This document shows positions 16,740-39,840 of a stretch of 64,000 nt of DNA, piece by piece. Position 1 is the stretch's first letter; each line of letters begins with the position of its first letter. The notes under the pieces were generated by a model. That model ran no database searches and was not told the origin of the DNA. It saw nothing but the letters and a program-made list of their open reading frames with translations. Source of the DNA: Daucus carota subsp. sativus (Eukaryota > Streptophyta > Magnoliopsida > Apiales > Apiaceae); assembly GCF_001625215.2 (NCBI RefSeq), contig NC_030381.2, positions 56,132,714 through 56,196,713 of the forward strand, in the 5' to 3' direction. The position numbers and the translations under genes are program-made.

Positions 16740-17896
16740 TTACTATATAAAGGAGGAGCGAGGGGCGTGTAGGTGGCGCCTCTCACTTCGCTCCGTTTTA
16801 TTTTTTTAATTTTCTAATTTTCTGAAATTTTTAGATGAAAAATATCAATAATTAGAACTGCCTTTTTTAGTTTCGGATATATTAGAAGCAAGTTTCAGAA
16901 TCTGATTTTGTTTCAGATTATTTATGGAATATAGCAGCTTGAAAGTTTTAATCTGATTTTGTTTCAGATTATTTAATTATGGGAAAGAGTAGTACACAAG
17001 TCTCTCTGCACTTATAAATACCCCTATAGGTTGTAGGGCTTTGGATCATCTTAACACAACCTTCTTTTTCAGTATCACAACCCTAGCTCTCTATGGTGAT
17101 AGTTCTATTGCTCGATTTTTAACTCGGTGTTGTCGTTCTTCTGGTGAAGGCTGTTTATACAGTATTAAAAAAAATAAAGGTTGTTGTAAGTAAAGGTAGT
17201 TATAGACCGCTACGTGGGAGTCGACAAATCCAAATACGGGAGAAGAATATAGTCTTGACATGATATTAATGGATGATATCAATAAATTAACTATTAGTGA
17301 TGTATGTTTGTTGGTTATTCTTTAATAAAATTTGTTTTGTTCATCGGACATGTTTGTTGTTGTTAATTTTTATATGATTTACTTTGCACACAAGAAAATA
17401 TTATTCATGCATTATCTGTTTGCTCCGTTCAAACAACTTTTAAGTGAAGACTGTTCATACAGTATTAAAAAATAAAAGTTGTTGCTAGTAAGGGTAGTTA
17501 TAGACCGCTATCGCATGAATTTAAGTTAGATGTTTTTGTGCACAATCAATCCAAAAAAATTGGAGGAAGGTGACAATGTAAGAACATGATTACTTTTCAG
17601 AAAAAAACACAAATAAAATTAAGATTTGTCGTGCTTTAAATTGTTAATTACGTGTAGAAATTTATTTTCATATTTTCAACATGAATTATAGTCTAATTTT
17701 GCAATTTTATATATTAGTATTGGCATTACATCAAGATTTTTATAATATAAAATTTAATTTATCCTACAAATATTAATTTTTAATCATTAATATATTTTTT
17801 ATATAAAGCCACAAAATTATTGCATTCTACAAATATTAATATTAGATCATTAATATAATTTTTATAGGCCGCCGCAACGCGCGGCTTCTCAACTAG
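16740..17896 (+). mobile_element. Non-autonomous Helitron H1 copy d, 1.16 kb
   Basis: It starts directly after the CTAG of copy c (TTACTATATAAAGGAGGAGC) and ends with the stem GCCGC ... GCGGC and TTCTCAACTAG, followed by T. It contains the shared TATAAATACCCC segment and two internal copies of a GTGAAGGCTGTTTATACAG block about 298 bp apart. The leading TC is changed to TT. No complete gene is seen. Confidence 0.85.
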
Positions 17897-18374
17897 TATC
17901 TATAATAACCTAAAATCTAAAATCTATCTATATAATAAATCCTGAATCCTATTACCAACATATTTACACCCCCTACCCTAAAACTTCATGCAAAATTACA
18001 AGTTTTGCCATTCGTTTTCAAAGCATGTATTACAAACAGTCAAGCTTCATTAAAGTTCCGACAGTACACGATTTGTCATATTGCGGCGTCCTTACCAACA
18101 CATGTGCTGCCTGTCTGTGAATTTCTGTATTAATTATATTAATTTTATGTAATCTTCCTCAATTGGAAGGACATTCAGCTGCTGGAGTTTCAAGTCCATT
18201 TTGTTTCTTTCTCAACTTCGTGGCTCTGCTGGCCACTACTCCTGAATCAAGCGATGGATTCAAATTTAGATCTCAATTCACTCTTCAGCAGCTGCAACAT
18301 ACGAACCCTAACCCTCCAAATTCAAATTCTCATCTCTCAAACTCTTTCTTATCTCTTGATTTTGCCGCGAATTT

Positions 18375-21300
18375 ATGAGAGAGGTATGTATTTTCCTGCA
18401 ATTTTTTCATGTATCTTCCCACTATTCAGGATAACAGATGCCTTCTCCGCTCTTGCAGGCTAATTGGGATCATCTGAAGCTTGATAATTTTACCTCCTTG
18501 CAAGGTGATTGATACTTTTTTGTGTTCATATATTCTCCTGTGTTTATGGTTGTTACATTCATTTGTATTTATGTCGGGTTTTTTTTCATTTATTACAACT
18601 GAGATGTAGACAGCCCAGTTCGAAGGAGAAGAAAGATTGATGGGTCGAACAGAACACATCAGGAGTCTTCAAATACACAGAGTAAGTTGTAACCCACACT
18701 GCTCCCATTTATTTGTTGATACATTGAGGAACTGTTGGAGATTTCATTGTTGCATTTTCTACCTTATTTTTAGGTGTATTTAATGGCAGTGCCACCCCCC
18801 CTCAACCCACATTGAACTCTAGACAAAAACTCTCTAACATAACAAATTTAGGCGGTACGCGCATTGTCATTTGAATTCATTTGTTGGTTGTAAAGATTGT
18901 AAAAGAGAAACAGAGTGAGTAAAGCAATTGTTGCATTTTGTACCTATTTTTGTAGGTGTGTTGAATGGCAGTCCCACTTCTGTTGTTGGTAATTCAGTTG
19001 GATTCCATACTCCCCCTCTGTCCACATTCAACTTTAGACAACCGCTCTCGAACATAACAAATTTAGGCGGTATGTGCATTGTGTTTTAATTTTATGATTT
19101 TTAAGTTGGTCCGTAAATGAAATGGTGTGAGTAATGCAATTGTCAATTTTTCTACCTATTTTTCTAGGTGTATTCAATGGCAGTCCCACACATGGATTTT
19201 GTACTCCCCCGCTGCCCACTTTGAATTCTAGACAACCACTCTGCAATATAACAAATTTAGGAGGTATGCGCATTGTCTTTACCTATATTGCATGTCAAAT
19301 GTATGTTTTAATTCTCTATTCTTTATGATAATAATGTAGTTCAAGCAACAACCCGTAGTACTACCAAATCCAGCAATACTCCCCAAGCTACACCCAACGA
19401 TTCAACAGGTTCCAATGTTATAATCCTTTAATTTCATATAAGGAAATTCCATGTTTTACATCACCCTTTCTTCTTATGATAATGAAGACAACCGTAAAGG
19501 AAAACGTGTGAGCAAAGCAACAACCCGCAGTACATCCGCATCCACCAATACTCACCAAGCTACACCCAACGATTCAACAGGTTCGAATGTTATAATCCTT
19601 TTAATTAATTTATGTTAATTTCATGTTTAAATCACCTTCTCTTCTTATTTTAATGAAGACAACCGTAAAGGAAAACGTGTGAGCAAAGCAACAACCCACA
19701 GTACTACCGCATCCACCAATACTCCCCAAGCTACACCCAACGTTTCAACAGGTTCCGATATTACAATCCTTTAATTTCATTTATGATGCAGTTTTAATAT
19801 CCAAAAATATATATGCTACTATGTTCTGCTATATTCAAGATTTTCACAAAGCTTTGATGATTTTTTTGAAACTGCACAGTCCCATGTTCTGCTATATTCA
19901 AGAATTTGTTTGCTGCAACAAATAGTCCCCGTACCAGTGGCAGTGGTCGTTGTCCAGCCCCCCCTTCTGCAGCAAATAAGTCGGCAGGTATATTGTTTAC
20001 CACATATTGTTGAGTACATGGATTATACTTTAGTGCTTTAATTACATATATCTAAAATGGTGGTGTATTGTGGTAAATTAGGTGGGTTAAATGTTACTCC
20101 CGGTTCTTTTGCTGCTGATACTGATGGATTTGATACCCCCCCGCTGCCTATGTACAATTCTAGACAACCACTATCTAATATAACAAATTTATCTGGTAGG
20201 TTTTTGTATTAAATACTTTTTGTGGACCTTTTATTTTGATAATAAATAAGATATTACATGCTTATTGTATTCTGATGGTTATAATTTAGCCAACCGTACC
20301 AGACACAATGTGCGTAAAGCAGCAACAAGCAGCACAACAACATCCACCAGTACTCAAGGATCAAAAAAAAAAAAGACAACAGGTTGCAATTTTTTCGTTT
20401 AAACTTAATATATTCTACCAGAAATCTAGCATATTTTACATAATTGATGAGCTTATCTATTTCCACAGTCCCGTGTTCTGATATATTCAAGAATCTATTT
20501 GCTCAAACAAATAGTCCCCACTCATGTACAACGCAGAATGAAAAAAACCGTTCTCTTGACACTACACAAGTACCCTGTTCACGGTTGTTTCACCCAACAG
20601 TTGACGACACCAATTATGAAGACATTGGTACTAACTCATATCCTTAAAAATCTGGTTATATCCTGGACATTTTCATTTAATCCAACATTAATGACTCTAA
20701 TGTTTTAATTTATTTTAGAGAATTCCCATCCTACTGATATACCTTCTGAAGACGAAGAACCGCTGCCTGATGATTGTAAAACTTTTCCCCAATTTTTTTC
20801 TCTTCTGTTCTGATTATGCCTACCTAATGCTATCATCTTTTCCTCAACTGTTTTCAAATATATTCTTATGTTTTTTAGATGGCAGTGATGTAACTGAAGA
20901 TTCATCAGAACCGGATCAGAATGAAGATGCTCATATTAGGCATCAAGGTAATTTATTCTTTTCCACTCTGCAATGATTCCTCTACAACATTTAGGAATTG
21001 AGGCTTCAAATTTTTGCAGTGCCCACCGGCTATGCGTCTTTGGGACCTCCTACCGAGTGCTGTAACAAATGTCATGCTATTATGTGGAAAGAGGAGAGGG
21101 TGAATAAAAATGTTACAAAGGGTATTCCTAAGTTTAGCACATGTTGTGGACAAGGTACCATTAAACTTCCACCGACTCCACCTACTCCTGATTACCTCAT
21201 GCATTTGTACACCGATAAAAACAAGTCAAAGCATTTTAAGCAGAATATCCGTCTATACAATGCAATGTTTTCGTTTACTTCTACTGGTGGAAAGGTTGAC

Positions 21301-24300
21301 TACTCTATTAATCGTGGAAGAGCTCCTTATGTATATCGTCTCAATGGTCAAAATCACCATGTCTTTGGTACACTCATCCCTGATGATGGAAAAGATCCAA
21401 AGTTTTGCCAGCTTTATATATACGACACTGAACATGAGGTGCAGAATAGGATGAAATGGGTAAGGGTTGATGATGGTGAGCCTGTCAATTCTGAGATTGT
21501 TGAAGGCTTGATAAGGATGCTAGATGAAACTAATCAGCTGGTTAGGAAGTTTAGACAAGCCAGGGATCGCTTCAAAGAGCAGCCAATAAGGAATCTTAGA
21601 ATAAAAATGAAAGTCTGTCGTTCGGAGAGTGGCCGTGAAAATAATATCGGCCCATCAGATGAGGTAGCTGCTGTTTTGGTTGGAGACATAAACACTACAG
21701 TTGGTGAAAGGGATATTATTATTGAGAAGACTCATATTGATCCTAATGTAAAAGTTTATGAACGTATCTGCTCTGTACACCCCTCACTTATGGCTCTTCA
21801 ATACCCACTACTGTTTCCCATGGGTGAAGATGGTTACCATGATGAGATTCCATATGTTGATCCTGACAACCAGAACAAGAAGAAGAGGAAACGCATTACC
21901 ATGAAAGAGTACTACTCTTACAAACTACAAGTTCGAAAAAATGAAGGTATTGCTGCTTATTTGGTTCTGCTTATGTTTTTTGTTCCTTTTTCTATCGTTT
22001 GAGAACATAATGAAATAATTTTCTGCTCAACAGGTCTTACAGTTCGTTTGGGTGGGCGTTTGTTCCAACAATATGTTGTAGATGCTTTCTCTACTGTAGA
22101 GCAGGCGCGTTTGTGGTGGCTACGTACTCATCAAAAGATTTTGCGCAGTGATTTGTATACGAATATTTCCAAGAAACTTCAAAAGGGAAATACTGACACT
22201 GCTAATGTTGGTAAAGGCTTCATTTTACCAGCTAATTTTTTGGGATCCAGGCGATATATGCAGCAGAATTTTCAAGACGCACTAGCTGTCTGCCGCGTCA
22301 TAGGTCATCCGGATATTTTCCTCACAATGACTTGCAATGCTTTATGGGATGAAATTTTAGAAATGATGAAGCATCTACCCGGCTGCTCACCACAAAACTC
22401 TCCAGACATAATAGCAAGAGTATTTCACCAGAAGCTACAACAAATTGTAGATGACATTAAGAAGAAGAATTATTTTGGTACCTGCCTAGGAGGTACTATT
22501 TAATTTCGATTATGTTTTTTTTAAATCTTCTATTTCCGTTCTCCAATTACTGACATTTATTTAATTTGTTAGTTATGTATGTAGTGGAGTTCCAAAAACG
22601 TGGTCTACCACATGTACATATGCTAATCTGGCTAAATTCAGACTCGAAGAAGAACTTGAGTACCAATGTCGACAATTATGTATCTGCCGAGATTCCAGAT
22701 CCATTGAAAGATCCTGAAGGTTTCAATGCTGTCAGCAAATTCATGATCCATGGACCATGTGGTTTGCAGAACCCGAAATGTGCTTGCATGAAAAATTTTA
22801 AATGTACAAAGCATTTTCCGAAGAAGTAAGAGACTAACTTATATATACTTGCCATTATCTATCTATAAATCATCAATTGTGGAACCTAATATCCTATACT
22901 GTAATGCAGGTATAATGCCAGCACCATCTTTGATCAATCTGGTTTTCCCATTTACAAACGTAGGAACACTGGAATAAATGTCAAGAAGGGCCAGTTTTAT
23001 CTTGACAACAGATGGGTTGTTCCATACAACCGAGATCTGTTAGTCAAGTATCAGTGCCACATGAATGTAGAAATCTGTTGTCATGCTAGGAGCTTAAAAT
23101 ATTTATTCAAATATTGCTTAAAAGGACATGATCGTGCCACGGTTGAAATTTCTTCTGAGAATGGTAATGCAACAGTTGGAGCTGATCAACCAGTTGATGA
23201 AATAAATGCATATTTTGATGGTCGGTATATTTGTGCGTGCGAGGCAGCTTACCGCATTTTTGGATATCCAATACACTACCGGTCCATATCTGTGCATCGT
23301 CTTTCATTCCACCTGCCTGGGGAACGTACGTGCACATTTACAGAAAATGATACTTTAGAGAAAGTTGCACGGAGGAATAGGCACAAGCGTTCACAGCTGG
23401 AAGCTTTCTTTCTACTTAACCAAACAGATCCATCTGCAAGAAAGTATACATATGATCAAATCCCAGAGCATTACGTATGGAATGAAGTAGATATGATATG
23501 GACAATGAGGAAGAAAGGAAGTCAAATTGGGAGATTGCTATATACACATCATAGTGCTGGTGAGATTTGGTACCTTCGTCTTTTGCTAACAAAGGTGTGC
23601 GGCCCAACCTCTTACAATCATTTGAAGACTGTCAATGGTAGATGCTACAATTCCTTCAAAGAAGCATGTTTAAATCTTGGTTTATTGGACGATGACAAAG
23701 AGTGGCATGAGGTAATAGAAGAGTGTGCTAAATCTGGGCTGCCTCCTCAAATCAGACAGCTCTTTGTCCATATTATTGTTAACTGTCAAGTTACTGACCT
23801 GCTAAATCTATGGCAACGACAATGGAAGTCCATGGCTGATGACATCTTGCTCCAACGTAGGAATTTATATGGCGAAGAACCTACAACCATTTCAGAGAAG
23901 CAACTACAATTCTATGTTCTTGCAGGTATTGTACATTCCTTCTTCTCACTATGAACCATTCACTGTTTGCAGGCCACTTCTTGATTATACAATAATTGCA
24001 ACTACTTTCACATGGTTACTACATATTGTATAGTATTTCCATTAGATTGATGCTAAATATATATTTATTTTTTTGCAGAAATTGATAAGTTGCTCAAATC
24101 CATTGGTAAATCTATCAAACATTTTAGTCAATTGCCACAGCCTCCTTCATCCTACCTGCAAACTGGTCAGAATAATTTGGTACTAGAGGAAACAAGTTAC
24201 AATCTTGAAAATATGGCAACTGAATTTGAAAGCCTATATCACAACTGTAATCCTGAACAAAAAGAGGTTTATAATGCTGTTCTCAGCTCAGTGGAGAAGA

Positions 24301-25718
24301 ATGAAGGAGGTCTGTTTTTTGTATATGGTAGCGGAGGATGTGGTAAAACTTACGTTTGGAAAACATTGATTTACAAGCTGCGCTCACTTGGCAAAATTGT
24401 TTTACCGGTGGCTTCATCTGGAATTGCTGCCACCCTAATGCCAGGCGGACGCACTGCTCACTCCCGATTCAAAATTCCTATAATGCTTGATGAGTACTCC
24501 TCTTGTGCGATAGCTCATGATTCTGATATAGCTGAGCTAATTAGAAATACAAGTCTAATCATATGGGATGAAGCACCTATGCAACATAGGTACGCATTTG
24601 AATGCCTCGACCGTTCTTTACGAGATATAATGAAATCTGTTGATCCAAACAGATATCAAATGCCATTCGGAGGGATTACAGTTCTCTTAGGCGGAGATTT
24701 TCGTCAGATCCTCCCAGTTATAAATTATGCCTCTCGTGGTGACATTGTTTCGGCGTGCATCACAAATTCATTGTTGTGGTATAATGCCAAAATTTATATT
24801 CTTCATCGTAATATGAGGCTCAATCAAGGCAACACTGCAGAGGAGGTTGAAGAATTGCGGACTTTTGCTGAATGGGTGTTGAAAATAGGTAATGGTACTC
24901 TGAAACCTCCTCAACAATCTCACATAACCTATGAAGAAGATGACATTCTTCTGCCTATCAATTTCTGTGATCCTGATGTACAGAATTCTGTTGAGAACAT
25001 GATACAGTGGACTTATCCAGAATTGCTGTCAAATTACATGTCAGCTAGCTATATAAGTGAAAGAGCTATACTCACTCCTACAAACCAGGTAGTTGGTCAT
25101 TTGAATTCTCAAATTGTTGAAAACCTGCCTGGTGAACAAAATACCTATTTTAGTGTAGATCGAGCTGAAGATTTCGGTGGCACTGCATCTGATTTGGGGT
25201 TTGCTTTTCCACCTGAGTACTTGAACGCTTTCAACATCTCTGGACTTCCTGCTCACGATTTGAAACTCAAAGTTGGTGCTGCTGTCATGCTAATGCGCAA
25301 TCTCAATCAAACTCTTGGCCTGTGTAATGGTACCAGAATGATAGTGACAAAGTGTTTAAGAAATTGTGTTGAATGCGAGGTCATTTGTGGAGCTTTCGTT
25401 GGTTCAAGACATTTCATTCCTAGAATGGAGTTATGCCCGACTGATACCAAACTGCCTTTCAAGCTCATCAGGAAACAAATGCCACTTCAGATATGCTATT
25501 CCATGACCATCAACAAGTCACAAGGCCAGTCGCTTGCTAAAGTCGGATTATATTTGCCAAACCCTGTATTTACTCATGGCCAATACTATGTTGCTGTCAG
25601 TAGAGTTACTTCTCCTGGTGGACTTAAAGTCTTCATAAACTCTAGCAATGGCTCACCAACAAATGTAACTAAAAATGTTGTCTACAAGGAGATTTTTTAT
25701 AATTTGCCATCTGCATAA
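18375..25718 (+). CDS. Helitron RepHel: HUH replication initiator fused to PIF1-family helicase
   Basis: My model has 20 exons and 1855 codons: 18375-18383, 18459-18504, 18610-18681, 18774-18854, 18956-19069, 19168-19263, 19340-19408, 19488-19580, 19659-19751, 19880-19987, 20082-20195, 20290-20382, 20469-20627, 20719-20775, 20879-20947, 21020-21946, 22034-22492, 22573-22825, 22910-23925 and 24079-25718. Every intron is GT/AG and the frame stays open. Residues about 43-382 are Ser/Thr/Asn-rich exon repeats. From 425 comes the Helitron-like N domain ([15 protein letters not shown]). The Rep part has [11 protein letters not shown] (about 825), the metal-binding HVH at 900-902, and the two catalytic Tyr, 1035 and 1039, in [10 protein letters not shown]. 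The helicase has Walker A GSGGCGKT (1393-1400), Walker B IIWDEAP (about 1471-1477), [10 protein letters not shown], and a motif V/VI region with NKSQGQSL and YVAVSRV. All key residues are present, so it could be active. The start is the only in-frame Met, with a stop just upstream. Confidence 0.93.
18774..20627 (+). repeat. Array of duplicated phase-1 exons in the RepHel N-terminal region
   Basis: Ten successive exons fall into three classes. Class A (exons 4, 5, 6, 11) encodes VFNGS ... [18 protein letters not shown]. Class B (exons 7, 8, 9, 12) encodes [14 protein letters not shown] ... [11 protein letters not shown]. Class C (exons 10, 13) encodes [17 protein letters not shown]. The order is A A A B B B C A B C. 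All flanking introns are phase 1, so each exon can be duplicated without frame damage. Intron sequence is also similar between neighbours (for example after exons 7 and 8), so whole genomic segments were duplicated. Confidence 0.9.
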
Positions 25719-26270
25719 TTTTTTAGAGTATAAAATATTGGCCAGTAATGGCAAGCTTGGTTTTTTGTATCAACCTGAATATTGTTTGCTGATGTTTGAG
25801 ATTGCTTTAATCAAATATATATGTTCTCTTTTGCATAAGGCAGTGCTCCTATTATTTGCAAGATATCATTGTTCTGTTATGGTGCATCGGTTCATTCAAC
25901 TGATTATTGCGAAATCGATTCTTAATTTTACTTCCTATGTCTGCTTAATATTTTTTTTAATGACAACTTAGATTTTGCAATTATATGATATATTGGAGAT
26001 GCAGTTTAAGCAAGATCCAATGATATATTGGAACTGAAGTTTAAGCTTCGAATGAAAACAAAAAACATATCACATTGTACAGATGATAAAAGGACAATGA
26101 ATTTTTTATAGTACTCATATTGGCCCACTTATCCTCAGCATGTACCCTATTTTTTTGCTTTTGTTTTCATCCACACATTCAGATCTACACATAATATCTT
26201 CTCCATCAGTTTCCAGAAGTACCAAACCAAATCTCAGCACTACCAAGCCATTCTTTTCCAGCTGCAAGAG

Positions 26271-28479
26271 ATGTTTAACCAATTTCATAGCTTGCTTGAG
26301 ATTGGAACTGAGCGTAGCGAGTGGTCGATTTCTGTTAGAGTTCAAGCACTATGGAAAAGTATCAACCGTACCACCAACGAATTCAGAGGATACAATATGG
26401 TCTTGACAGATGTCCAGGTATTAATACTTCTTTCTATATAGGCTACCTGCTAACAATTAATGAGTTTTACCTACATTCATGAGTACTCATTTGATGTTTC
26501 CTTGGTCAGGGTTGTCGAATTCATGCTTTTATTATGGACAAAGTAAGTGACAAGTTTGAAAGTTTAATAGAGGAAGGTGATGTCTACCATATCTCCAATT
26601 TTAAAGTCAAAAAATATGAAGGCAAGGAACAGAACAGAGTTGTTAGGAATGAGAAACACATATTCTTTGACTACCAAACTAAACTTAAGAAGATGACTGA
26701 GGAGCTGTTTACAATTCCACCTTATGCATTTGATTTTTTTCCTTTGCAAGAAATGGAGAAGATTTTCAATGACAACTATTTCTTAGTTGGTAATACCGAT
26801 ATCTTTTTAATATATGAGCTACTTTTTTTGTTAGTTTGTAAATATATTGTTTCTTTACTGTAGATGTCATTGGGAAATTAGAGCAATCTGCTCTCTCAAC
26901 TTATGTTTCAAAGGAGGACAGCAAAAAAACCAATGTCAAATTTAAAATCTTTGATGGCAGGTATTATATTAAACCCACTTTAAGTGCCGAGTAGAGTATT
27001 TATTTTAAAACTCTCTTCATATATATACTGATGTATCGCATGAATTAATTAGTGCTCAGATGAATGTGACATTCTTCAATCTATTTGGTGAAAGTTTTGA
27101 GAAAGCTTTGAAAGCAATGGCAGAAGCAGAGGTTGTTATTGTTATAGCCTGTGCTAAAGTTAATAAATATGAAGGTGAGTTTGCATAGGGCATTGTCTAC
27201 AACTACCCTACATTAATTTAGCAGAACTCTAATTTTGTGTAGTCTATTGGAAATAGGTGAACTCTACTTGACCAACTACCCTGCAACAAGGTTCTATCTT
27301 AATCCTAAACATTACAGCCTCATAGAATTTGAGAACAGGTAGAAAGAATTGTTGTGTTCTTCAAATAATAAACAATAGGGTAAACATTCAATAACAGTTG
27401 TAACTAATGTAAATAATACATTTGTAGTATTACAAGGAAGAAGGCTGAAGAACAGTTGCTATCTAAGATGTTTACTATTGCTGAGATTAAAAACTTAACT
27501 GATACCCACATTCAGGTATGTAGTCAGATCTTTATATGTGGAATTACAGAATAATTTGCAAATATTAACAAATTTTTTCTAATGTTAAACAGAAGGATGT
27601 TCGTTGTTCTGTTAAAGTGAAAAAGGTTGAGGAACAATATAATTGGTATGAAAATTGTTGCCCTGGTTGTGGTGAAGAGGTTAATAAGGTGGAGGGTAGG
27701 TTTAGATGCACAACTGAATGTAAGAGGAATATACCGTGGCCAGACAAGAGGTGATTATGCTGAAATTAGCGTAATATAAAAAGACAATTAATTTGTTAGC
27801 GCTGATTTATATTTTGTTTCCTTCAACTAGGTTTCGTTTGACGACGGTTTGTTCTGATGCTTCTGGGATTCTAGCTATTATTTTCCCAGACGACGAAATC
27901 CAACGTATCATTGGCAAAGAAGTATTTGATATTGAGAATGATGAATCACAGGTTCTAATTAGAGAATATATTTGCTTTAAAGAATAAACTTGAAATATCA
28001 AAGATGATTTGTTGTTTTCATTGCTTAGGTTGGTGCTGACGGTTCTACTTTCCCTCCTTTGCTAAAACAATTTGAGAAGAGAGATTATATTGTCACAATT
28101 ACCATTTCTGCTTTGAATATCAACAAAACGTGCAAGGTTTACAAAGCAAAGAAGCTTGATAATCCTGAAGAGAACTTGGGTGAAAATGAACCTGCAGAGT
28201 TAAAATCTGCGGAAACAGTTGACCATACTATGGAAACGGTAGGTTATGAATTTAGCCCAATTCATAACCATCAAAACAATTGCTTTCAAATTGACTTTTA
28301 TTAACTTCATCTGGTTTAATATATGGTCAAATCAGGTATCCGAAACTGTTGCTGAACCCAGAACATCCTCTCCACCAACTGAGAAGTCCTCCAACAGGCC
28401 CAGAGGCATCAAGAACAAAATTCCTGTTAAATGTGGGATCTTGGCTGAAACACCTAACACTAAGATGAAGAAATCCTAA
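26271..28479 (+). CDS. Helitron-borne RPA70-like single-strand DNA-binding protein A
   Basis: Ten exons give 482 codons plus stop: 26271-26417, 26510-26789, 26864-26960, 27053-27174, 27257-27338, 27428-27515, 27593-27750, 27831-27951, 28029-28238 and 28336-28479. The product resembles the OB-fold chain of replication protein A large subunit. An N-terminal DUF223-like OB domain (exons 1-2, with GCRIHAFI and YHISNFKV) is followed by a second OB domain (exons 3-5). A C-terminal OB domain carries a zinc-finger-like cluster CCPGC ... RCTTEC. The tail (PRGIKNKIPVKCG) is basic. Such genes accompany many plant Helitrons and probably coat single-stranded DNA during transfer. It lies 552 bp downstream of RepHel on the same strand. 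Exon 4 needs the acceptor at AATTAG, because the later CTCAG would give an early stop. The start is the first Met in a long open frame. Confidence 0.85.
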
Positions 28480-28887
28480 TATTGCAAGTAGGAAAACGTT
28501 TTTTGTTGTTGTTAAGTTGAATTTTCAAATTCATTTACTTATCATATCAGAACAAAATCTCCTTGCAGGATTGGCAGGATAGCTACCTCTTTTGTTGTCT
28601 ACTCCAGAATGCTTAGAATAGGAACTGCAAACATTTAATCTTTTGTGCTCAGTTGATATAAGTATCTAAATATCAGTAATAGCTGTACCTCTTGAAACAG
28701 CTGTACTATTTCTTATGTTCAGAACATTTGCTGCACTATTTGAACAGCTACAACATTTATTTATGAAGCATCTACCAAAGCAATTAAGCAATCAGCTTTT
28801 CTGAGCATATACTCTTATTCAGTCTATAAAAACAACCCGTTGTAAAACCTTAGCAACATAGCTCAGCTAAAACATAAAAACAATAAC

Positions 28888-30852
28888 ATGTCTTCCAAAA
28901 AATGCGATTCTTTCAAAGATGTAAACAAAGTGCGCTATGATTGGAAAGTCACAGCTAGGGTCATGAATTTATGGAGAGGAGTGTCTACGAAAGGAGAACC
29001 GTTTACTAGCTTCAATCTATTACTTCTTGATAATAAGGTAACATGTGTAACATTTTGATGTGTTTAATGTTTGTGAATTATTCTAAATATGCTCATGTTT
29101 TTCGAAATCAGCGTTGTCGTGTTCATGCCTTTGTTCCTGGGAGCGTGGCTGCTAGCTTAGAGCCAATATTAGAAATAGGAAAAATATACCTCTTCAACAA
29201 CTTCACCGCCAAGGATTACAAGGCAGATGAAAAGTTCAGGCCAGTACACAAAACTTGGCAAATTGTTCTAGGACAGGAGACAAAAATCACCAGTTTAGAT
29301 GAGAACGAGGTAGCCATTGACAAAGCTGCATTTGATTTTTACGATCTGGCTGATCTTAAAGACTTGGCAAATCAATCAACCTATTTAACTGGTACTTACA
29401 ACTCCTCATAACATGGACCTATACACCATTGCCGAATAAATTCAATGATTTTTGCTTTCATATTGTCTAATCCATTCTTCAGATGTCATTGGAGTTGTGC
29501 ATGAACGTGAAATACAACTAGGAGACATTAAAAATCGATTTGGTGTCCAGCAACGCCAAATAAAAATAACTATCACAGATGGAAGGTATTTTAATTATAT
29601 GTCTAGCACTTTGTTTACATAATTGTTTCTGATATTCTTTCTTGCATTTTACAAGGAGAATGGTGAAGGTCACTTTCTGGGACGATTTTGCTCAATTATT
29701 TGCTGATGCAGTGAAGAAGAATACTTTTGAGTACCCTCTAATTCTCATTGTGTGTTGTGGCAGAGCACAAGAGTGGCAGAGTATGCATTGTTCCATGTTC
29801 TAATTTCATTTTTAGACTCATTTCATATGGTAATATAACATTGATTCAATTTGAAATTTTGTAGAACAAATAAACATCACAAATGTAACTGCAACTACCT
29901 TCTACATAAACTGCAATCACAGCAGTGTCGCACACATGAGGAAAATGTATGAAACCTATCTTACATCTAAGTACTATATTTACTTCGCATGATTTGGTTC
30001 TGCTAACATACTGTATTTAACCAATGTCGCAAGGCTAAGCCAACCTGAGTTCGAGGAATACAACAAATCAGTTCCAAAATGGAAACCCATCCAGATGCTA
30101 AGCATAAACCAAATCAAAAATGTCAAAGCGGATGACTCTGAGGTGAAAAATATGTTTATGTAGTTTGTTCTGTCTTAAATATGTCAATTACCATCATGTA
30201 AATGACTAACAATAAAAAACTACAGACTGAAGTTCTATGCAAGGTGATTATTGACAAAGTCATGCAGGATACATGGTACAAAGATATATGTACATCATGT
30301 TATAGCAAACTTCAGGTTGTAGGCTATGAAATGAACTGTCTGACCTGTCCTAGAACTGTTCCTTATGCAGACAAGTGGTACTATACTCTCTATTGCATGT
30401 TGTCATCTATATAGATTTAGTTTATTTTAGACATTTAGTTTATTTGGTTATTTTTTCACATAGGTTTGAGATTTACTGCATAGCTTCTGATGCAACTGGT
30501 AGCATACCAATTATGTTGGACAACTTCTCAGCTATGAAATGTTTTGGAAAAAGAGCTTACGATGTCTACAATAAGGTATGGACTGAACTAATGTACATAC
30601 GAAATGTTTACATTTTGACTGCCTCATGCATGATTGCAGGGAAATGAAGTCTTTCCAGATATAATTAAATCACTTGAGAAAAAACTTTACACTGTGAAGA
30701 TCATGATTACCATCCACAATATTACTGGTAGGAACAAGGTTTACACTGTTAAGGATATGGTTCCTGGACACATCCTAAAAACGGAAGCATCAGAGAGTGA
30801 AGACACTACACCTAAACCAGTACAAGAATCTTTTGCTGAGGTGAAAATCTAA
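28888..30852 (+). CDS. Helitron-borne RPA70-like single-strand DNA-binding protein B
   Basis: Nine exons give 441 codons plus stop: 28888-29037, 29112-29391, 29483-29585, 29656-29780, 29865-29946, 30034-30142, 30226-30377, 30464-30575 and 30640-30852. The order of domains and several exon lengths match copy A (exon 2 is 280 nt and exon 5 is 82 nt in both), so the two are tandem duplicates, but the proteins differ widely. Visible features are RCRVHAFVPG and IGKIYLFNNF in the first OB domain, KVTFWDDFAQLF in the second, and a zinc-finger-like CTSC ... CLTC before the last OB strand (FEIYCIASDATG). An alternative last intron (donor after 30840, acceptor before 30928) would replace the last three residues with a short Ser-rich tail ending at 30975. 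Confidence 0.83.
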
Positions 30853-30975
30853 AACCAATTGAATGAACATAGATTTTTCATTGTAACTCTATATATTGAT
30901 GCTAACAATATCCTATTTGGCAAACAGCCTTCCAGTTCAAGCTATCACCTGGACTCTGTTTCAGAAAACATCTGA

Positions 30976-31426
30976 GTGCTATCTACTTCCAATCTATCAA
31001 ATTGGTACACCTACTTTGTCTAATTATTTAGTGATCCGTCTACCTAAATTTGTAGTTCTTTTTATTACCTAAATTTGTAGTGCTTATTATTACCTAAATT
31101 GGTGCCCTACCTAAACTGTATGTCTAATTGTTATGACAAATATTAACTAATTTACATGCATTTTGTCCAACATCATGATCAAGTGTGAGCATGATATAAG
31201 TATAAGCTAATATAAATTACAGTACTTCATCAGATTATAGAAATTACCAGAAAAACATATAAATATAAAAGTTGAAGCATCATCAAAGGTCAAAAGCCTA
31301 AGAGAACAGATATTACAGTACTTCATCATGAAGTATTTTACGGATAAAAATACATAGAGTTATTTAATAGTTAAGCCTTACGTGACAGTGGACAAGAAGT
31401 CTTCAAGGCTTCCACAAGAGATCATT
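30976..31426. other. AT-rich spacer between convergent RPA-B and B3-2 genes
   Basis: No gene is seen. A short motif TTACCTAAATTTGTAG recurs two to three times at about 31039-31105. The spacer should hold both 3'UTRs, since the genes converge here. Confidence 0.6.
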
Positions 31427-32911
31427 TCAGCCATCAAACTTTAAAACTTGAATACTAAATTGATCATAACATTGCATTGGGCATTGAAAAAGACAAATAT
31501 CTCCAATTTCCAACCCCAAATCATCACGCAGTCTTTGCCATCCGTCTACAATAGCACAATAGTTGTGGCCGTCCCTGTTACGTGTTACAAGCCTCCAACG
31601 ACAGCTTCCTGAATAGATGTTAATGCATTGGAAATTCTGCCACACTTCAGACAAACCCGTAAAATCATCCAAAATCTCCTGTACATAATATATTAAAAGA
31701 AGTTTATAATATGTCCACTTGCTTTAAAAATTAAAATCACATTTAACTAAAAGCTGTTAAAATACTCACAACAACATAGCAGTCATCAAACATATGTTTA
31801 GATTCAAGCTTGACATGAAAACATTTGCCAACAAAAGGACCACAACCATTTGCATCTGCACAGAATAACCATTACAGAACTTCTATAAACCAGTTGAATT
31901 CTGCTATTGACTAAATGTAATAAATTAAAGAAAAAGGCCAAGAGTGTCTTACCCTCTGAAAGTGGTGTTCCCGGAAAAACCAATTCATTCAGTTCTGAGT
32001 CAAATGAAGAAATAAATATTCTTGACGTCCCATCATAGGTAAAAAGAAAAGAATGTACCCCATTCATAAAGGCTAATCCTAACATCTCAAACATATAACT
32101 CAGACCAGTAAACCTTGAGTTGGTTGAATCATATGATCCAACAAAATTCTTCCCGTTACTAAGAACATATTGAATTTGCATAGGCAAAGCAAATCCACAC
32201 CTCTCAACAAAGGCAACAGGAGGATGCTGCATGGTAAATACAATCCAGTTTAAATATAACTATGTCCTTACATTGTAAGGTACTTTCACTATAAGTTAAC
32301 GTGACAAAAAACTTACAATTTCATCAAAAACAGCATCACCATTCGGACAAGCAATAACAAACCGCCATCCCGCATCACCAATGGTAACTAAAATCGAAAT
32401 ATATATATATTAACTATTCAGATTCTTCAAAACAGAGTAGCAAACCAAAAAAAACAAGACAGTTTGGTCACCTATTCCAGGTAAAGTAGCCTCAACTGGA
32501 TAGCGGATTTCAGAACCATTACTACCAATTATATAAATGTGAAAGTTATAGCGTCCGAAGTACTCAAACAAAAGCAACTCCCCCCCATTAAGCTCCATAT
32601 TTTTGAAAAAAGGAAAAACACCTTTAATTAGGCATTTTTCCATATCAATCTGGATTGGTTGTACATATCCGTTACGCACTTTAAGCTCCATAGAATCAGT
32701 CAAGAAACTACTGTATTTAGAACAGAAACTACTGGGAATGGTCTGAAAACAATAAATTTCGATTGTTCAGAAATACAAATAAGATAACTACAAACAAAAA
32801 CATAAATTAGGCAATGTAGTTTTCAAAACAGATAACCAGTTCATTTGACAATGTGTCGTTGTAGTCTAGCCGGATGCAAAACTTATCAGCTACAATCCCA
32901 GAACATTCCAT
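31427..32911 (-). CDS. REM-like protein with about three B3 domains (B3-2), probable Helitron cargo
   Basis: Minus-strand exons 32911-32837, 32742-32472, 32387-32317, 32226-31953, 31855-31770 and 31678-31427 join into 342 codons plus stop with GT/AG introns. A short first exon is followed by B3-like units: IPSSFCSKYS ... LLLFEYFGRYNFHIYI (about 26-110), HPPVAFVERCG ... FLFTYDGTSRIFISSF (about 140-215) and a C-terminal unit ending in GDICLFQCPM and FSIQVLKF (about 255-342). B3 domains bind DNA; the REM subfamily is highly divergent and often has several domains. The exon plan matches the neighbour at 33809-35969, so the two are paralogues. An open frame continues upstream to 33235, but it shows no B3 pattern and the short first exon parallels that of the neighbour, so the start at 32911 is preferred. 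I am less sure of that start. Confidence 0.75.
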
Positions 32912-33808
32912 AGATCTGAAACAATAACAGTTGTAGTCAAAAAATTGCAGATGAAAGGTAGATATATAGATGTAGAACTCTGACCTCATTGCTCTATACA
33001 AGAACCTTGCACAGCAGATGCCTTCTTTTAGATAACTGGAAATCAACGGCAACTGTGCTACTCCACTGCCTTTTTTCTTTACAAATATGCTCCACAGCAC
33101 ATCAGGAGTAGCAATAATTGCTCCACTACCTCTGTCCAAGGTTCTATATCCACTGTAATAATAGGAGTACCAAGGAAAGAATAAGAGTCCATAAGTTTGG
33201 GCCAAGCCTCTCAAATTTTGGTTTTTAAAGCCCATTTACAATTTAAAAATGGTTCCTTCATTTTAAGTTCGGCTTAAAACAGTGAGAAACAAATCCAAAA
33301 CATTCTTTTTCTATTGAAAAATTATTTACAATTTTTTAAATAATTTTGAAAATATAAAAGAATTTTTTTCCTTTGACTTAAACAATTATGTGCAACAGGA
33401 GAGGAAAAAAAATTAAATTCAGTTAGGCTTAAAACTTTGGAAAAAAAAAAAGTTTGATAGACAATATTTCAGTTGTGTACTCCATTGCAATGTTAGCATA
33501 ATAAAATTGCAGAACTCAAATTGCAAAATATATCAACAATAATTTAGTCAATTCAAATTGCAGAGCTCAAAAGTATAAGAAATAATATCAACAATAATCA
33601 GAAGCAAAATATATATTAGCCTAATAAAAGTCATCAGCATACAAGTTAAAATTCAGTCAGGCTCTAGCCAGTACAACCAAAAGATCAAAAGCAATACCAT
33701 AAGTGCATTTTCTCACATTTCCAGAATAACTACTTCAAATACACCAAAAGCAAGTTTAACGAAGCAACCAAATTTATATAGCAAAGTACAAATCTTTCAT
33801 AGAAAACT
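32912..33808. other. Spacer between the two B3 genes
   Basis: It should hold the promoter of B3-2 and the 3'UTR of B3-1. A minus-strand frame to 33235 encodes a stretch (DVLWSIFVKKKG) that I do not recognise; it may be 5' leader. An approximate duplication of TCAAATTGCAGA-containing sequence lies at about 33510-33610. Nothing else is supported. Confidence 0.5.
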
Positions 33809-35969
33809 TTAATTTGTAACCAAGACTTCAAACCGGAGCTCTCCAACATAGGTGAACTCCAGTATGCTTCCAACTGACAAGTGATTCCCAGAAACAAAAG
33901 CATTCCAACCTCCTGAAAATCTAGCCTGGTTACCAAACCTCAGAATTTCCACTTCCCAAGCAACAGTTCCGACTACCAAGGCCACATTTGTTCTGTTCTG
34001 CCATTGTCGTGTTTCAGTCCAAAAAGGAGGTGGAATATACTGCATTGTAAAAGTTAAAATTACAATTAAGAAAATGACATGAATACTTAAAGGACATGTA
34101 CAATTAAAAAAAGTTATGTTACCACTCCATGCCCACGCTGATCTACATGAGATCGTTTTAGAACCACATTGAAAGCAAAAATGGCTTCAACATCATAATC
34201 ATGAACATCGGAAACAGAGCTATCATCCGAATCAGAGCTATCATCCGAATCAGAGCTATCAGTGCTTGAATCAGAGATTACAATGATTTCATTGCAAGGT
34301 GAATCTGTGAAGATAGATAGAAAATAGTCAATTAAAATTCAGAATCATTACAACTATACTAAATGAACTTAGATTGGTGTACCTTCATCCATTCCATCAT
34401 CCAGACCAGATTCAACCTCAGTAGATTCAAAATCAGCAATTGAACAATAACCATCTACATCACGCAAGTGATTCATACACTGGGAATCGTACACCATGAC
34501 GGAGAACGCAGAATTGCCATTATAGGTAAACAGTAAAATATAGTTCTCCATGAGGTGGAAATACTTAATTATCTGGAGCAAACCGTTAACACAACCAGTG
34601 GATGAAGAATAACCAACTTCAACCGTATGTTTCCCACCAAAATAAAGTTTCACAACATTACCAAGAGTTTCACCAAATTTCCTTCTAAACACATAGGGAA
34701 TTTCCTGGTATTTTACAACTGAAATTAGAATATATATAACAGCATAACAGTGGAATTATTTAACAACTAAAATTAGAATATATATCCCACCCAAAAATAT
34801 TAGCTTATAACATGACAGCATAACAGTTGCATTTGTCAAACTAATTGCGTTAACAAACGGAATCATACCAATTCTCCAGATTTCAAAGAAGCCTTAGTAA
34901 ATCCTTTATAAAATCTTGGTGACGGATTAGTACCAGTGACCACTGTAATTAAGAATGAACAATTTATTACTAATACAATATTAAAGACATCAAACACAAT
35001 ATAGTTCTCTCTTCAAACACAGGATTTCAAAAAGATATCATACGCATCAAACAAAATAGACTGACCAGCTGATTGTTCAAGTTCTGAAACAATAGAGGCA
35101 TCAAAAATAGCAACTTTGAAAAACCCTTTGTACTTGGTCTCCTGCAGAACAAGTACATCACCAACCAAAACCGCAGCATCCTTAATAAAGTTAACCCATT
35201 CACTACCAAATTGGACAAAGTTATTAGCCCATTTCAAAGAAATAGTCCACTCATAATCTTCAAAACCCAGTATGATGGAAGGTACAAACTTTGCCATCCC
35301 CAACTTCTCAGATGCGTCATTCGCCAAAATCTACATGCAGTATTGAATGGGGTTGTACAAAATTAATGCGGTGCTAAAAACACAATAAAATGGATTAAAA
35401 TACCAAAATACTGGAATGTTACCTTAGGGTAAGATTCCTCAACAAAGTGACTGTGGTCAATCGAAAGACTGTACTTGCCAACACAGTTACGAAATCCATT
35501 GAAAAGGTATTTAGAGAAAAGTTTGTCTACCTCATACACAGATCTTTTACTGGCAGGGACTGAAGTTACAGCAGGATAGTTCATTTCAACAGCAAACTGA
35601 GTATAAATCTCAAATCCAAAATCAGGGCCATCCAAATAGTGGAGACGAACTACATTATAAGGATTCACTTTATAATGGTCCATCCACTCTTCCAGACCAT
35701 GAAGACGATGATCACCTTTGTCAAATGTACAAGGCCAGAGGTCATTAGATGGACCATGCAAGACGAGTTTACTGGGTAAAGAGTTCATGAATGTCACATA
35801 AAATGGTAGAGGCAGCTTCTGCATGAAAAGAAAACAAATAATCAGCTGTAAAAAAAAATTGAAGTTTTGGAAACAATGAAGAGTTAGCAGCCATTACCAA
35901 TTTCCCTTTCTCAAACCCTCCACCATTGTTCAAACACAGGAAATCTAATGATTTCTCAACAGTACTCAT
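33809..35969 (-). CDS. REM-like protein with about four B3 domains (B3-1), probable Helitron cargo
   Basis: Minus-strand exons 35969-35898, 35818-35423, 35330-35066, 34942-34869, 34704-34383, 34304-34123 and 34039-33809 join into 513 codons plus stop. B3-like units lie at about 25-110 (LPLPFYVTFMNSLPSKLVL), 165-235 (WANNFVQFGSEWVNFIKD, then GDVLVLQE), 270-350 (IPYVFRRKFGETLGNVV, then YILLFTYNGNSAFSV) and 438-513 (GGWNAFVSGNHLSVGSIL). An acidic Ser/Asp linker with SSDSDDSSDSDD separates the third and fourth. The architecture is that of plant REM proteins, presumed nuclear DNA binders. Exon 5 requires the acceptor ATACCAG; the earlier TTTCAG would run into a stop. The frame is uninterrupted. 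It ends about 430 bp inside the proposed Helitron 3' terminus and reads against RepHel. Confidence 0.8.
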
Positions 35970-36365
35970 TGTAACAAACCCTAAAATGAAAAAAATAATA
36001 GAGTTTAATAACATTGGATGGATCATAAAGTACAAATCATAAACAACAAAACATAGGGAATATTACTTACCAATTGCAGTAGCAGAGGGAATTAGCAGAA
36101 GTGGAAGATGAAGTGAACTCCTCTGATTTGCTCTGCTTTATGAAACGCCGAGCTAATACAAATGTTGTGTAACCCCCAACTACCCATTAATAGTGTAATA
36201 GGCCCATTACTTTAATAGCCCTGTAATAACAAAACTGAGTTATATTTTTACTTCTTCATTAAATAATTAACACAAACGGACAAATTGATTTATAAGCAAC
36301 TAAAAAAAAATAAAATAAATATCTTCATGAAAATTAATTTATATAAATCAATTAATCTTAATTTA

Positions 36366-36398
36366 TAAAAGCCTTAGCGGAGCGGGCAAAAATACTAG
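36366..36398 (+). other. Proposed 3' terminus of the large Helitron
   Basis: A GC-rich, imperfect stem-like stretch (GCCTTAGCGGAGCGGGC) stands out from AT-rich flanks, followed by AAAAATACTAG and then T. This matches the Helitron layout of a hairpin 10-12 bases before CTRR and insertion before T. The stem is weaker than in H1 or H2, so confidence is moderate. Confidence 0.5.
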
Positions 36399-37101
36399 TA
36401 TTAATAGATGTAAACACCGAACAACATCCAAATCCAAATACAGGGTTGAGAGTTTTGAGACCCAATATCCTGTGGAACCGATTCATTTGATATTTAGAAA
36501 TACGGGTCTCGTCATTATATGCTTACGCTGACGCTGTAATTTATGATTCAAAGGCCAGGGTGGGCAAGCGAGGCGGGCTGCCGTACAAATTTCAAATTCA
36601 AAGGGAACACGAACCCTCTTCCTCGGTCTTGGCGTGAGCATCTTCATATACCACTACCTCCTATTCGTCTTCTCCATTCATTGCTTCCATTTTCTTTAAG
36701 GGTTTGATCTATCTACCTTTATCAATTATATTCGTTTTTTCCCCGCTGCAAGTAATTCTTTTCTCATTATTGATTTATTAAACAATATTCCTGCATATAA
36801 CACCTTACTTTCGTTAATTAATTTGCCGGCTATTCGTATTACTAACACCAGCTCCATGAATTTTAATTGGATCCAGTATCCACCATAGATATTGTCATTT
36901 TAGCCCCCATCCTACTTTTACACCATCTCTCTCTATCACACACACACCAACAGATGTCTACAAATATCATTGTATATTTTTCTCTTCCTCTTGTTGTTGT
37001 CTCACAGTTTGATCCTAACACCGTAATTTTAACCCTGTCTATTTTCAGTTGGAGGGGGACTTGAACTCAGTCTTTTACTTTTTAATTGAATCTGCCTCTC
37101 A
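36399..37101 (+). promoter_or_regulatory. Upstream region and 5'UTR of the host B3 gene
   Basis: About 700 bp between the Helitron end and the start codon at 37102. The part from about 36590 onward looks like a transcribed leader (CT-rich, CCTCTTCCTCGG, TCTTCTCCATTC) and may contain a 5'UTR intron. No second gene is seen. Confidence 0.45.
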
Positions 37102-39840
37102 ATGACTAGTAACAACTCCAACACCAACACCTACGAAGAGGCTCGGAAGCAACGCCTCCTTGAAAATAAAAAACGAATTGAGGTATGCGTCGACCACCTA
37201 GTGGAAAGGATATTTTCTCATCATCACTTGTTTTACAAATTATAGTTTCCAACAATGTATATTACATGCCAGTGTCAATTACAAAAACTTTTGTATCTCT
37301 CCAAATAATACCCCACAACAGATCAATGCAGATAATAGGTCTCTCTTAAATCCTTACGTTTTAACCTTTTACTGAAAAATATGAGAGCCACAGACTACTT
37401 ACATGATTTTTTGTAATGTAAAATATAACTACATATAAACAGCCACATTACATGATTACTTGTATTGTTTCTGTAATATTTGTATTTTATTCTACAGGAA
37501 TTGGGGATTTTGAAGATATCTAAAAGTTTGTCAGATATCACAAAATCTGGGAAGCCCCAGGTTATGCACCTAAATACGACGACTTCTTGATTTGATATGG
37601 TTATTAATATACGTAATGATCCAACCAATATTTTATTCTGAGTTTCATATCTAGAACCTCTATTGTATATGTAGAGACGTCAACCAAAACCTAGAGCAAC
37701 TAGCATCAGCATTTTGGAGCCAAGACGTTCCTCACGTGCACGTAACATCGTTTCTTCTTACCGCGATGATGTAAGTGACTGCCATTTATATGGTTTTTGG
37801 TTCAGTAACCAAAAAATGGTAATAGGAGAAGTGTTTAATAATGCCCTGTCTGTATTACAAAACTTTTTAAGTACCTACTGCAGTACTATCTTGTTTTTTT
37901 TATCATTATGCCCCTGTCTAAGTCCTAGAGGTCCTTTTTAGATTTCTTTTTGTGATTTTTTCTTCCTTTTACACACATCTATAAAATCAATATGTTCAGA
38001 ATATTCTCTCTCTCTTTTTTTTAATGACATTTTGTTTTGAATATACTTAACTGCATTTTATGCACAGATTGGTGTAGAGCTCCCTCTCATGCGTAAGAGA
38101 TCAAAATTCAATTCCTCATGGACAAGGTTAGAATTATACAATTGTGATAAATATTGTTTCCCCCTTCCTTTCTATATGTCTGCAAGCCTCTTTTGCAAAC
38201 TAACAGATTGGGAAATGTAGAATAATGACAAAAATTAGTGACAAAATTAAAATTTAAAGCTTAAAAATAAGCCAATGGACTATCTTGTACTGCCCAAAAT
38301 GTAAATGAGGTGAGAATATATAAGTTGGGAAATTAATTTTTTTTAATTTATTGACAGTAGTGTTGCAACAGAGTCATATGCCTTGAAAATAATAACATTG
38401 GTCCTATAAAAAATCGCATATGAAAAAGAACACACAAATAAAAAAAGGGACATGTACGAAAGGGAACTAAGAGGGAAGTACATACTATATTCTTCTTAAT
38501 GCTAGCTAAACTGCTTGTGTTCAGTTATCTTGCAAGGCCGGTTGATGAGGTCAAAAGTTCTACGCTTGAAGAAAGGAACGCTGCTATGAAATCTGCAGAG
38601 AAGATCCAATGCAGCCAGCAGTCTAAATTTCCATCTTTCATCAAGTCAATGGTCCGGTCTCATGTTTATAGCTGCTTTTGGTTGGTAAGTAGAATAGCTT
38701 TTGTTTTCATATCAAGGTCAAAAAAAAAAACGAACCTAGACAACTACTTAAATGCTGCCGAAGATATCTATCTCATTGTTCTTACAAGCTAAACAAATTA
38801 TTTGTTATCAACTTAGGGACTACCTACTTGGTTTTGTGAAGACCATCTCCCGAAGTCCGATGGAAATACCGAAATTGTATTGGAGGATGAGAGTGGCGCT
38901 GAATATGAAGCTGTATATATCAGCAAGAGAACTGGGCTCAGTGGTGGATGGAGAGCATTTGCTCTGGATCACAAGTTAGACGATGGAGATGCATTGGTAT
39001 TTGAATTGACTGAGCCAACAAGATTTAAGGTGTGTCTATGTTAGTATATATAAAGCATCTGTATGTAGTATCTTTTCCTTAGGTTGAATAACTTAGATCC
39101 TCAACTTCTGCATTGTTCATTTTGTTAAATTTGTAATCTGGATATTGCATAAGTTATGAAACTTATAGCACATACTAGTCAGTTTGTTGATTTGCTAATG
39201 TTGTGTTTGGTTGGGGTGAATGAATATTGAAGGAATGGAATAAAATTTGCATTATGTTATGGGCAAATGTTTAAAAATTTCATTCCTTGCACCCTATGCT
39301 AGAGAATAGAGATCACACCCCCAATTTGAGAAGGAATGCTCCATTCCTTCCTATACTCATTTTCTTCTCAAATCTCATCATAACTATTTTGCACTCAATT
39401 TATTTTCAGAACTTTCCTCCTACCTCTACTATTTTCATTAATTTTTTGTCATTCCATTCCATTCTCCCCAATTAAACACAACATAAGTGTTTCTTTAATT
39501 GATGCACCACAGTTTTTCTTAACTTGCACTACAGGTATACATAGTTAGAGCTTGTGATGATCCAGGCAAAGAAGAAATGTTAGAAGTTACTGAAGAAGAA
39601 AAAATTTCCAAGGAGGTACCAAAAGAGATCATGGCCAAGACAAATAGGAAAACTGAATCAAAGAAAGGAAGCAATTCTGTGCTTGTGTCAGGCAGAAAAT
39701 GGAAATGTGATGAGTCAAGCCTAGAAAATGATAATACCCTTGAAATCAGAGAAGAACTCAAAAGTTTGAAAGAGATTAAAGCAGAAGACAAGAAGAAGCC
39801 AATACGGGTATCATCCAGGAAACGAAGTAGTCGGCAGTGA
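37102..39840 (+). CDS. Single-B3-domain nuclear protein, At5g42700/At3g19184-like
   Basis: Seven exons give 325 codons plus stop: 37102-37182, 37498-37560, 37675-37770, 38068-38126, 38525-38684, 38817-39029 and 39535-39840. The N-terminus (YEEARKQRLLENKKRIEELG) is typical of this plant B3 group. It is followed by a basic region with ARNIVSSYRDD. The B3 domain spans about residues 135-236: FPSFIKSMVRSHVYSCFWLG, then GGWRAFALDHKLDDGDALVF, then FKVYIVRA. The C-terminal tail is Lys/Glu-rich and ends in the basic SSRKRSSRQ. The protein is presumed to be a DNA-binding transcriptional regulator. It belongs to a different B3 group from the two REM-like genes inside the neighbouring Helitron. Its sixth intron contains a Tourist-like MITE. 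Confidence 0.9.
39199..39483. mobile_element. Tourist-like MITE (PIF/Harbinger), 285 bp
   Basis: The ends TGTTGTGTTTGGTTGGGG and CCCCAATTAAACACAACA form inverted repeats, and TAA flanks both sides (39196-39198, 39484-39486). That three-base duplication is the PIF/Harbinger signature. It lies in an intron of the host B3 gene. A related sequence (GGAATGGAATGAAATTTG) appears near 45920 in the first intron of the eIF2-beta gene. Confidence 0.85.

Follow-up and report, generated by a model that had tools for sequence, protein, structure and literature searches.

B3-domain genes travel with RepHel Helitrons of carrot and diverge in step with them

Introduction

Plant Helitrons are described as encoding RepHel, often together with RPA. 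Among the closest described systems are relatives of the rice Helitron Mothra (PMC4683698), with which the carrot element analysed here shares CTAG-type ends, an A|T insertion site, shorter copies with the same ends, a RepHel with an HUH motif, two tyrosines and a Pif1-type helicase, and RPA companions. This element lies in a stretch of 64,000 nucleotides of Daucus carota subsp. sativus (NC_030381.2, positions 56,132,714 to 56,196,713), referred to below as the window, and is unlike the Mothra-type Helitrons in that it also carries two antisense genes with multiple B3 domains, B3-I and B3-II. The terms 'B3 domain' and 'transcription factor' do not occur in the accessible part of the Mothra paper.

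In Arabidopsis, Pol IV complexes are recruited via CLSY3/4 by GDE1 together with the REM proteins VDD, VAL, REM12 and REM13; prediction has these REM proteins dimerising through their N-terminal B3 domains and reading DNA through the C-terminal ones (PMC12270911, the accessible portion of which does not contain the word 'helitron'). VANDAL transposons encode anti-silencing proteins (PMC10398659). We found B3 genes in Helitrons undescribed in the open PMC full texts searched (subscription papers, preprints and Repbase lay outside the search), no title among those listed in wider searches hinted at them, and 'B3 domain' is absent from the sections available of a 2026 review of gene capture by plant transposons (PMC13317346).

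Here we report that the two B3 genes lie inside the mobile unit and are copied with it, that many divergent Helitrons of this genome likewise have B3 genes downstream of RepHel and antisense to it, and that these genes diverge in step with RepHel. At least 45 of 78 RepHel places in the genome add B3 within 15 kb, an accompaniment beyond what a single window could show. We assign a probability of roughly 0.6 to the reading that this is an autonomous-type plant Helitron whose multi-domain B3 genes are long-standing genes of its own, like RPA, and encode a regulator of the element itself, most likely one acting against RNA-directed DNA methylation (RdDM).

Results

The B3 genes are copied with the Helitron

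Positions 17923-36398 of the window (Table 1) are one Helitron. The sequence-only reading had placed all five genes (RepHel, two RPA and two B3 genes) in a single element, and a search of the genome (441,086,747 bases in 11 contigs, labelled C1, C2 and so on) recovered two further copies with the same ends, in each of which every tested exon of all five genes is present. The first (C4a; C4:1717246-1735545) matches the element at 99.2% identity across 16.9 kb and at 98.5% across the first 1.7 kb, starts with TA, not TC, and has two stop codons in the helicase exon. For the second (C4b; C4:46084671-46103126) the identity is 93.2% between 20113 and the end, and 69% over the first 1.5 kb. Further relatives include an older 27 kb copy (C6:9842336-9869701) with RepHel at 85%, RPA at 84% and 75%, B3-I at 70-74%, an insertion of about 12 kb and no B3-II; a C2 copy ending at 3012011, with RPA, B3-II and B3-I at 74-84% but no RepHel within the 26 kb retrieved; a fragment that carries B3-I and ends like the family (C5:510438-514019, +), likewise without RepHel within the 20 kb retrieved; and a 2.6 kb deletion copy (C3:34895625-34898214).

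We further note that no RepHel/RPA copy ending before 31.4 kb, a finding that the sequence-only reading held would speak against it, was seen, and that B3-I is present in four of the five RepHel places with at least 89% identity. The fifth (C5:543290-544708, -), about 90% identical, has no RPA or B3 match within 25 kb among the matches listed. The B3-I fragment with the 3' end lies about 30 kb away on the opposite strand, so this place may be part of a broken element, and the two C5 fragments are perhaps a single element split by inversion. The proposed young element may have moved recently, since a copy 99% identical to it sits on a different chromosome; a genome search with the joined flanks of one copy (C4b) found no empty site.

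The boundaries follow from the copies themselves, whose alignments start at 17922/17923 and, where they reach the 3' end, stop at 36399-36414, directly after the CTAG in which a Helitron-like end had been recognised from the sequence. The 5' ends of the family read TCTATCTATATAATAAATCC or nearly so, and the 3' ends GCCTTAGCG[G/A]AGCGGGCAAAAATACTAG, then T. Pattern searches of the genome returned twenty 3' ends (16 exact and four with one mismatch; reversed control 0) and twelve 5' ends at up to two mismatches (control 0). TC opens nine of the twelve 5' ends and TA the other three, including copies C4a and C6, and CTAG closes all twenty 3' ends; the window has TC at 17923 and CTAG at 36395-36398. 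An A precedes the 5' end at 11 of 12 places and a T succeeds the 3' end at 20 of 20, with the qualification that both patterns included the flanking base but tolerated two (5') and one (3') mismatches. Flanking DNA is unlike between copies and the ends are alike, as in A|T insertion without target duplication. The conserved imperfect palindrome at 36371-36387 folds at -1.8 kcal/mol (z 0.70; variant z 0.53), no better than shuffles.

Pairs of ends on the same strand within 30 kb number eleven, namely three of 18.3-18.5 kb (including the window), the 27 kb and 2.6 kb copies, and six of about 6-7 kb (C2:19342620, C3:1947032, C3:12602460, C6:21057642, C9:21443179 and C9:21540938). The last six have no B3-I or helicase match among the matches listed and are classed as non-autonomous derivatives. 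A locus with the family 5' end (C4:13044163-13053909) has relatives of both B3 genes some 6-10 kb inside, shows no match to the helicase among those listed, and is a possible RepHel-less copy retaining the B3 genes.

B3 genes accompany RepHel in many carrot Helitrons

All counts of related loci are lower bounds, as 82 of 355 candidates were scored for B3-I, 78 of 346 for the helicase exon, 150 of 566 for RPA and 125 of 452 for B3-II; the RPA and B3-II counts rest on the matches listed. The B3-I search gave at least 101 matches, grouped into at least 47 loci, and the helicase exon at least 78 places. A B3-I relative is found within 15 kb of at least 26 of these 78 places, in every case downstream and antisense, as against a mean of 0.235 and a largest value of 3 in 2000 trials of random placing, in which loci were placed independently, whereas the real loci are mutually related and so are not independent events. 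When B3-II is included, at least 45 of the 78 places have a relative within 15 kb (23 B3-I only, 19 B3-II only and three both), and all 114 listed B3 matches within this distance of a RepHel helicase are downstream and antisense. Within 25 kb the figure is at least 53 of 78 (random placing: mean 0.8, at most 4 in 1000), three of the 53 having upstream matches only; the matches comprise 135 downstream antisense, three downstream sense and three upstream antisense. Lengths were assumed for contig C7 in both random runs and for C8 in the B3-I run.

This linkage is further supported by gene order. Among 23 elements outside the window family that carry B3-I, RPA lies beyond B3 in 22 and before the first B3 in none, a count made after manual thinning of repeated matches at each locus and with a small number of Pfam hits added; the exception has no RPA within 25 kb among the matches listed, and at C3:13564405, among the 22, two B3-RPA sets follow one another. 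The B3 genes of these elements are therefore bracketed by two Helitron genes. One such element whose middle was read has, after RepHel (+), a four-domain B3 gene (-) and RPA (+). This distant B3 gene matches Pfam B3 at 2e-20 in three stretches, and by eye its domains occupy different exons and follow the order found in B3-I. In the window family the B3 genes come after both RPA genes, and B3-II relatives are located between RepHel and RPA in some elements and beyond RPA in others. Two RepHel-RPA gaps of 4-5 kb without a B3-I match were fetched, and both contain antisense B3-II relatives.

About a dozen of the places without a B3 relative within 15 kb have an RPA match about 1 kb past RepHel among the matches listed, which leaves no room for an intervening B3 gene. 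The seven most distant places (54-58% identity) have neither RPA nor downstream B3 among the matches listed. Listed B3-I matches above 40% identity are confined to the family copies and to C8:24359607-24361459 and C4:13044163-13045791, both of which also have B3-II relatives. At five loci (C5:20771627, C4:24101175, C4:20360464, C4:26183480 and C1:8366119) B3-I relatives occur up to about 6 kb from RPA exons with no helicase match listed; these are probably more Helitrons with a decayed or unscored RepHel.

B3 genes diverge in step with RepHel, and B3-I is under purifying selection

Protein distances of the RepHel helicase and of B3 domain 1 are correlated across 17 loci (r = 0.914, reached in 0 of 20,000 permutations; r = 0.927 without the window), a value raised by three near-identical pairs among the 17. 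These were drawn from the 26 loci by leaving out two family copies, five loci without a domain-1 match and two with a partial one; six of the 17 cover domain 1 partly, and C8:9855686 has four stops in its helicase exon. All seven closest pairs of loci agree between the RepHel tree and the B3 tree, and the positions of the window and of C8:9855686 are discordant or poorly supported. A recent capture of the B3 genes was considered and rejected, because many RepHel loci carry them and the RepHel and B3 distances match.

B3-I is clearly under purifying selection, weaker than that on RepHel. Comparison of the window with C4b, C2, C6 and C5 gives dN/dS values of 0.43, 0.31, 0.35 and 0.29 (Fisher p 0.0014, 1.5e-16, 7.7e-16 and 6.6e-20); the value against C4a, 0.35, is based on 16 changes, too few to judge. 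RepHel pieces give 0.04-0.20 (against C4b and C6) and RPA exons 0.08-0.41, on small numbers. For B3-II, purifying selection is significant in one of two tests (0.39 against C2, p 1.4e-5). Frame-shifting gaps occur in the B3-I of C6 (four) and of C5 (two), each of which also lacks one B3-I exon match, and in the B3-II of C2 (one); such decay raises the dN/dS values.

Genes of the window element

The gene models given here are all by-eye readings of the sequence. The sequence-only reading proposed 20 RepHel exons, smaller ones lying upstream of 20995; the five large exons (20995-25718) are open, match Pfam PIF1 (2.6e-86) and Helitron_like_N (7.4e-52), and when joined align with residues 6 to 1113 of the 1120 of Helraiser (7lcc) at E 7.3e-233; two further exon pieces have no Pfam match. 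In this alignment HVH stands opposite the HAH of 7lcc, and the two tyrosines of YLFKY fall on identical residues, 727 and 731 of 7lcc, which we take to be the catalytic pair. The HVH motif, tyrosine pair and helicase recognised by the sequence-only reading are thus borne out, as are its two downstream RPA genes, whose DUF223 and REPA_OB_2 matches fall slightly under the Pfam cut-offs and which are related to RPA exons adjoining many RepHel genes of the genome.

The 5' part of RepHel contains a 171-bp tandem array at 19343-19785, the other tandem repeats found being short, and exon-like repeat units of 123 bp and about 171 bp, 60-89% alike to reference copies, occur at 18738-20201. A role of these 5' repeats as binding sites was considered and rejected: by eye they contain splice-acceptor-like and coding-like stretches and look like duplicated RepHel exons. 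About 26 bp upstream of the element's 5' end, at 17861-17896, is a second Helitron-like 3' end (GC-rich palindrome, CTAG, T), as if the element at 17923 had inserted adjacent to an older Helitron.

Table 1. Coordinates of the Helitron and its features in the window
Feature	Position	Strand	Description	Basis
Whole Helitron	17923..36398	+	A|TC...CTAG|T; 18,476 bp	copy boundaries
5' terminus	17923..17950	+	TCTATCTATATAATAAATCCTGAATCCT	12 genomic places, up to two mismatches; control 0
RepHel, large exons	20995..25718	+	HUH/Y2 Rep domain and Pif1-type helicase	open frames, Pfam, 7lcc alignment
RPA-like gene 1	26271..28304	+	start by eye, end approximate	DUF223/REPA_OB_2 below cut-off
RPA-like gene 2	28888..30850	+	start by eye, end approximate	DUF223/REPA_OB_2 below cut-off
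B3-II gene	31427..32911	-	6 exons, 342 aa, about three B3-like domains	
B3-I gene	33809..35969	-	7 exons, 528 aa, about four B3-like domains	
3' terminus	36371..36398	+	GC-rich imperfect palindrome, then CTAG	20 genomic copies; control 0

Both B3 genes exceed the Pfam B3 gathering cut-off of 30.1 bits, B3-I at 4.9e-17 (62.1 bits) and B3-II at 1.6e-8 (34.8 bits, with 317 of 342 residues scored), which upholds the two multi-B3 genes proposed inside the element; a B3-II relative at locus L077 scores 18.8 bits, below the cut-off. All exon borders of B3-I are GT-AG, and two of its domains were identified by Pfam and the remainder by eye. By eye, the C-terminal domains retain the GW...G[S/D] pattern of host B3 domains and the first domains mostly do not. 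Among PDB structures VRN1 and At1g16640 are the closest matches of the C-terminal domain, though weak ones (E 0.04 and 0.08), and the label 'REM-like' given earlier leans on this weak similarity. In a poorly resolved domain tree, host B3 domains stand apart from most element domains, with one element domain among the host ones. A plasmid collection searched with B3-I exon 2 yielded no match.

A host-like B3 domain (38778-39041, +; Pfam 1.1e-14) is located 2.4 kb past the 3' end of the Helitron, on the strand opposite to the element's B3 genes, and two stop codons fall within the longer genome match there. The domain was scored by Pfam only, the domain tree having used other host domains.

Discussion

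The B3 genes have stood beside RepHel long enough for joint divergence, which suggests that the element uses them for self-control or for evasion of the host. In the mechanism we propose, RepHel would copy the element by rolling circle and RPA would shield the single strand, following the standard Helitron model. The B3 proteins would bind DNA mainly via the more canonical C-terminal domain, may pair, as has been suggested for host REM proteins, via their degenerate N-terminal B3-like domains, and would act on the element's own promoters or ends, most likely helping it to escape or divert host RdDM. By analogy, a Helitron with its own REM-type protein could activate or shield its copies in the manner of VANC, regulate its own genes, or guide RepHel.

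Several observations weigh against this proposal. At 33 of the 78 helicase places there is no B3 relative within 15 kb among the matches listed, which means that some Helitrons of this genome may do without B3. The listed identities of 65-99% for RepHel and 23-93% for B3 mean that B3 evolves faster, yet in step, and B3-II compared with C4b (dN/dS 0.54, p 0.12) is not significantly off neutral. A PDB profile search with the N-terminal domain alignment found no match, and alignment-free AlphaFold models of two B3-I exons were too poor to keep (mean pLDDT 44.0 and 50.8) and were discarded. A k-mer scan of the element revealed no clear clustered or tandem motif array, which leaves the analogy with VANC short of one defining feature.

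Two other functions for the B3 proteins seem unlikely to us, and about equally so. They could be accessories of transposition without a role in silencing, which bind Helitron ends or target DNA and aid RepHel in finding or choosing sites. Linkage and co-divergence with RepHel suit such a partner as well as they suit a regulator, and the B3-I start codon lies 429 bp from the 3' end of the element; the helicase places without a nearby B3 relative count against it, as do the six copies of about 6-7 kb that have the family ends and no B3-I match, although help in trans is conceivable. Helraiser, which is active in cells, is not known to require any B3 protein, a further point against an accessory role. 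Alternatively, the B3 proteins could be plain transcription factors with no link to silencing that repress copying of the element or, in reproductive tissue, switch on RepHel and RPA. REM-type B3 proteins do act as transcription factors, and reproductive tissue is where many of them are expressed; in the sole Rep-B3-RPA element whose middle was read the B3 and RPA genes are divergent and have a common intergenic stretch. Nothing in the sequence tells this explanation apart from an anti-silencing one, a point that counts against preferring it.

That the B3 genes are useless passengers captured from the host is, in our estimate, very improbable. Helitrons often capture gene pieces, as in maize (PMC13317346), and a host-like B3 domain stands just beyond the 3' end; this explanation is nevertheless largely contradicted by the old association across many lineages, the fixed orientation, the matching distances and the purifying selection, and other host domains are mostly apart from the element domains in the weakly resolved tree. 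Less credible still, to the point of being nearly dismissed, is that the B3 genes are separate neighbouring host genes or an accident of assembly or annotation. Clusters of host B3 domains do exist in the genome; identical boundaries at unrelated loci and the uniformly downstream and antisense position of the listed matches within 15 kb contradict this account.

If the reading of the B3 proteins as the element's own anti-RdDM regulator is extended, they might be a counter-defence that competes with or diverts targeting by the host REM-GDE1-CLSY3/4-Pol IV system, the two sets of B3 proteins evolving against each other and part of the fast-evolving REM family being perhaps transposon-derived; we offer this tentatively and consider it rather doubtful. 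Gene catalogues produced by automatic annotation may list Helitron genes under the plant B3/REM family.

Comparison with the known systems places the carrot element between several of them. Helraiser, with a RepHel alike over almost its entire length, is not known to carry an RPA or B3 gene. REM/VRN1-like proteins (VDD, VAL, REM12, REM13, VRN1 and At1g16640) resemble the element's B3 proteins in having several B3 domains each, and the latter differ in their degenerate N-terminal domains and in their location inside Helitrons. VANC of VANDAL (PMC10398659 and PMC5735166) is likewise a transposon-encoded protein other than the transposase, and its sequence-specific action on its own family is what we propose, by analogy only, for the element's B3 proteins; these belong to another transposon class, have B3 domains, and lack a detected counterpart of the tandem repeats that VANC targets. 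The TET/JBP genes of fungal Helitrons and other DNA transposons (PMC12730594) are also Helitron genes thought to counter DNA methylation, but they encode an enzyme and occur in fungi, whereas the carrot B3 proteins are putative DNA-binding regulators. Should the B3 proteins act on silencing, they would make up another plant transposon-encoded regulator system beside VANC, one confronting REM-guided DNA methylation.

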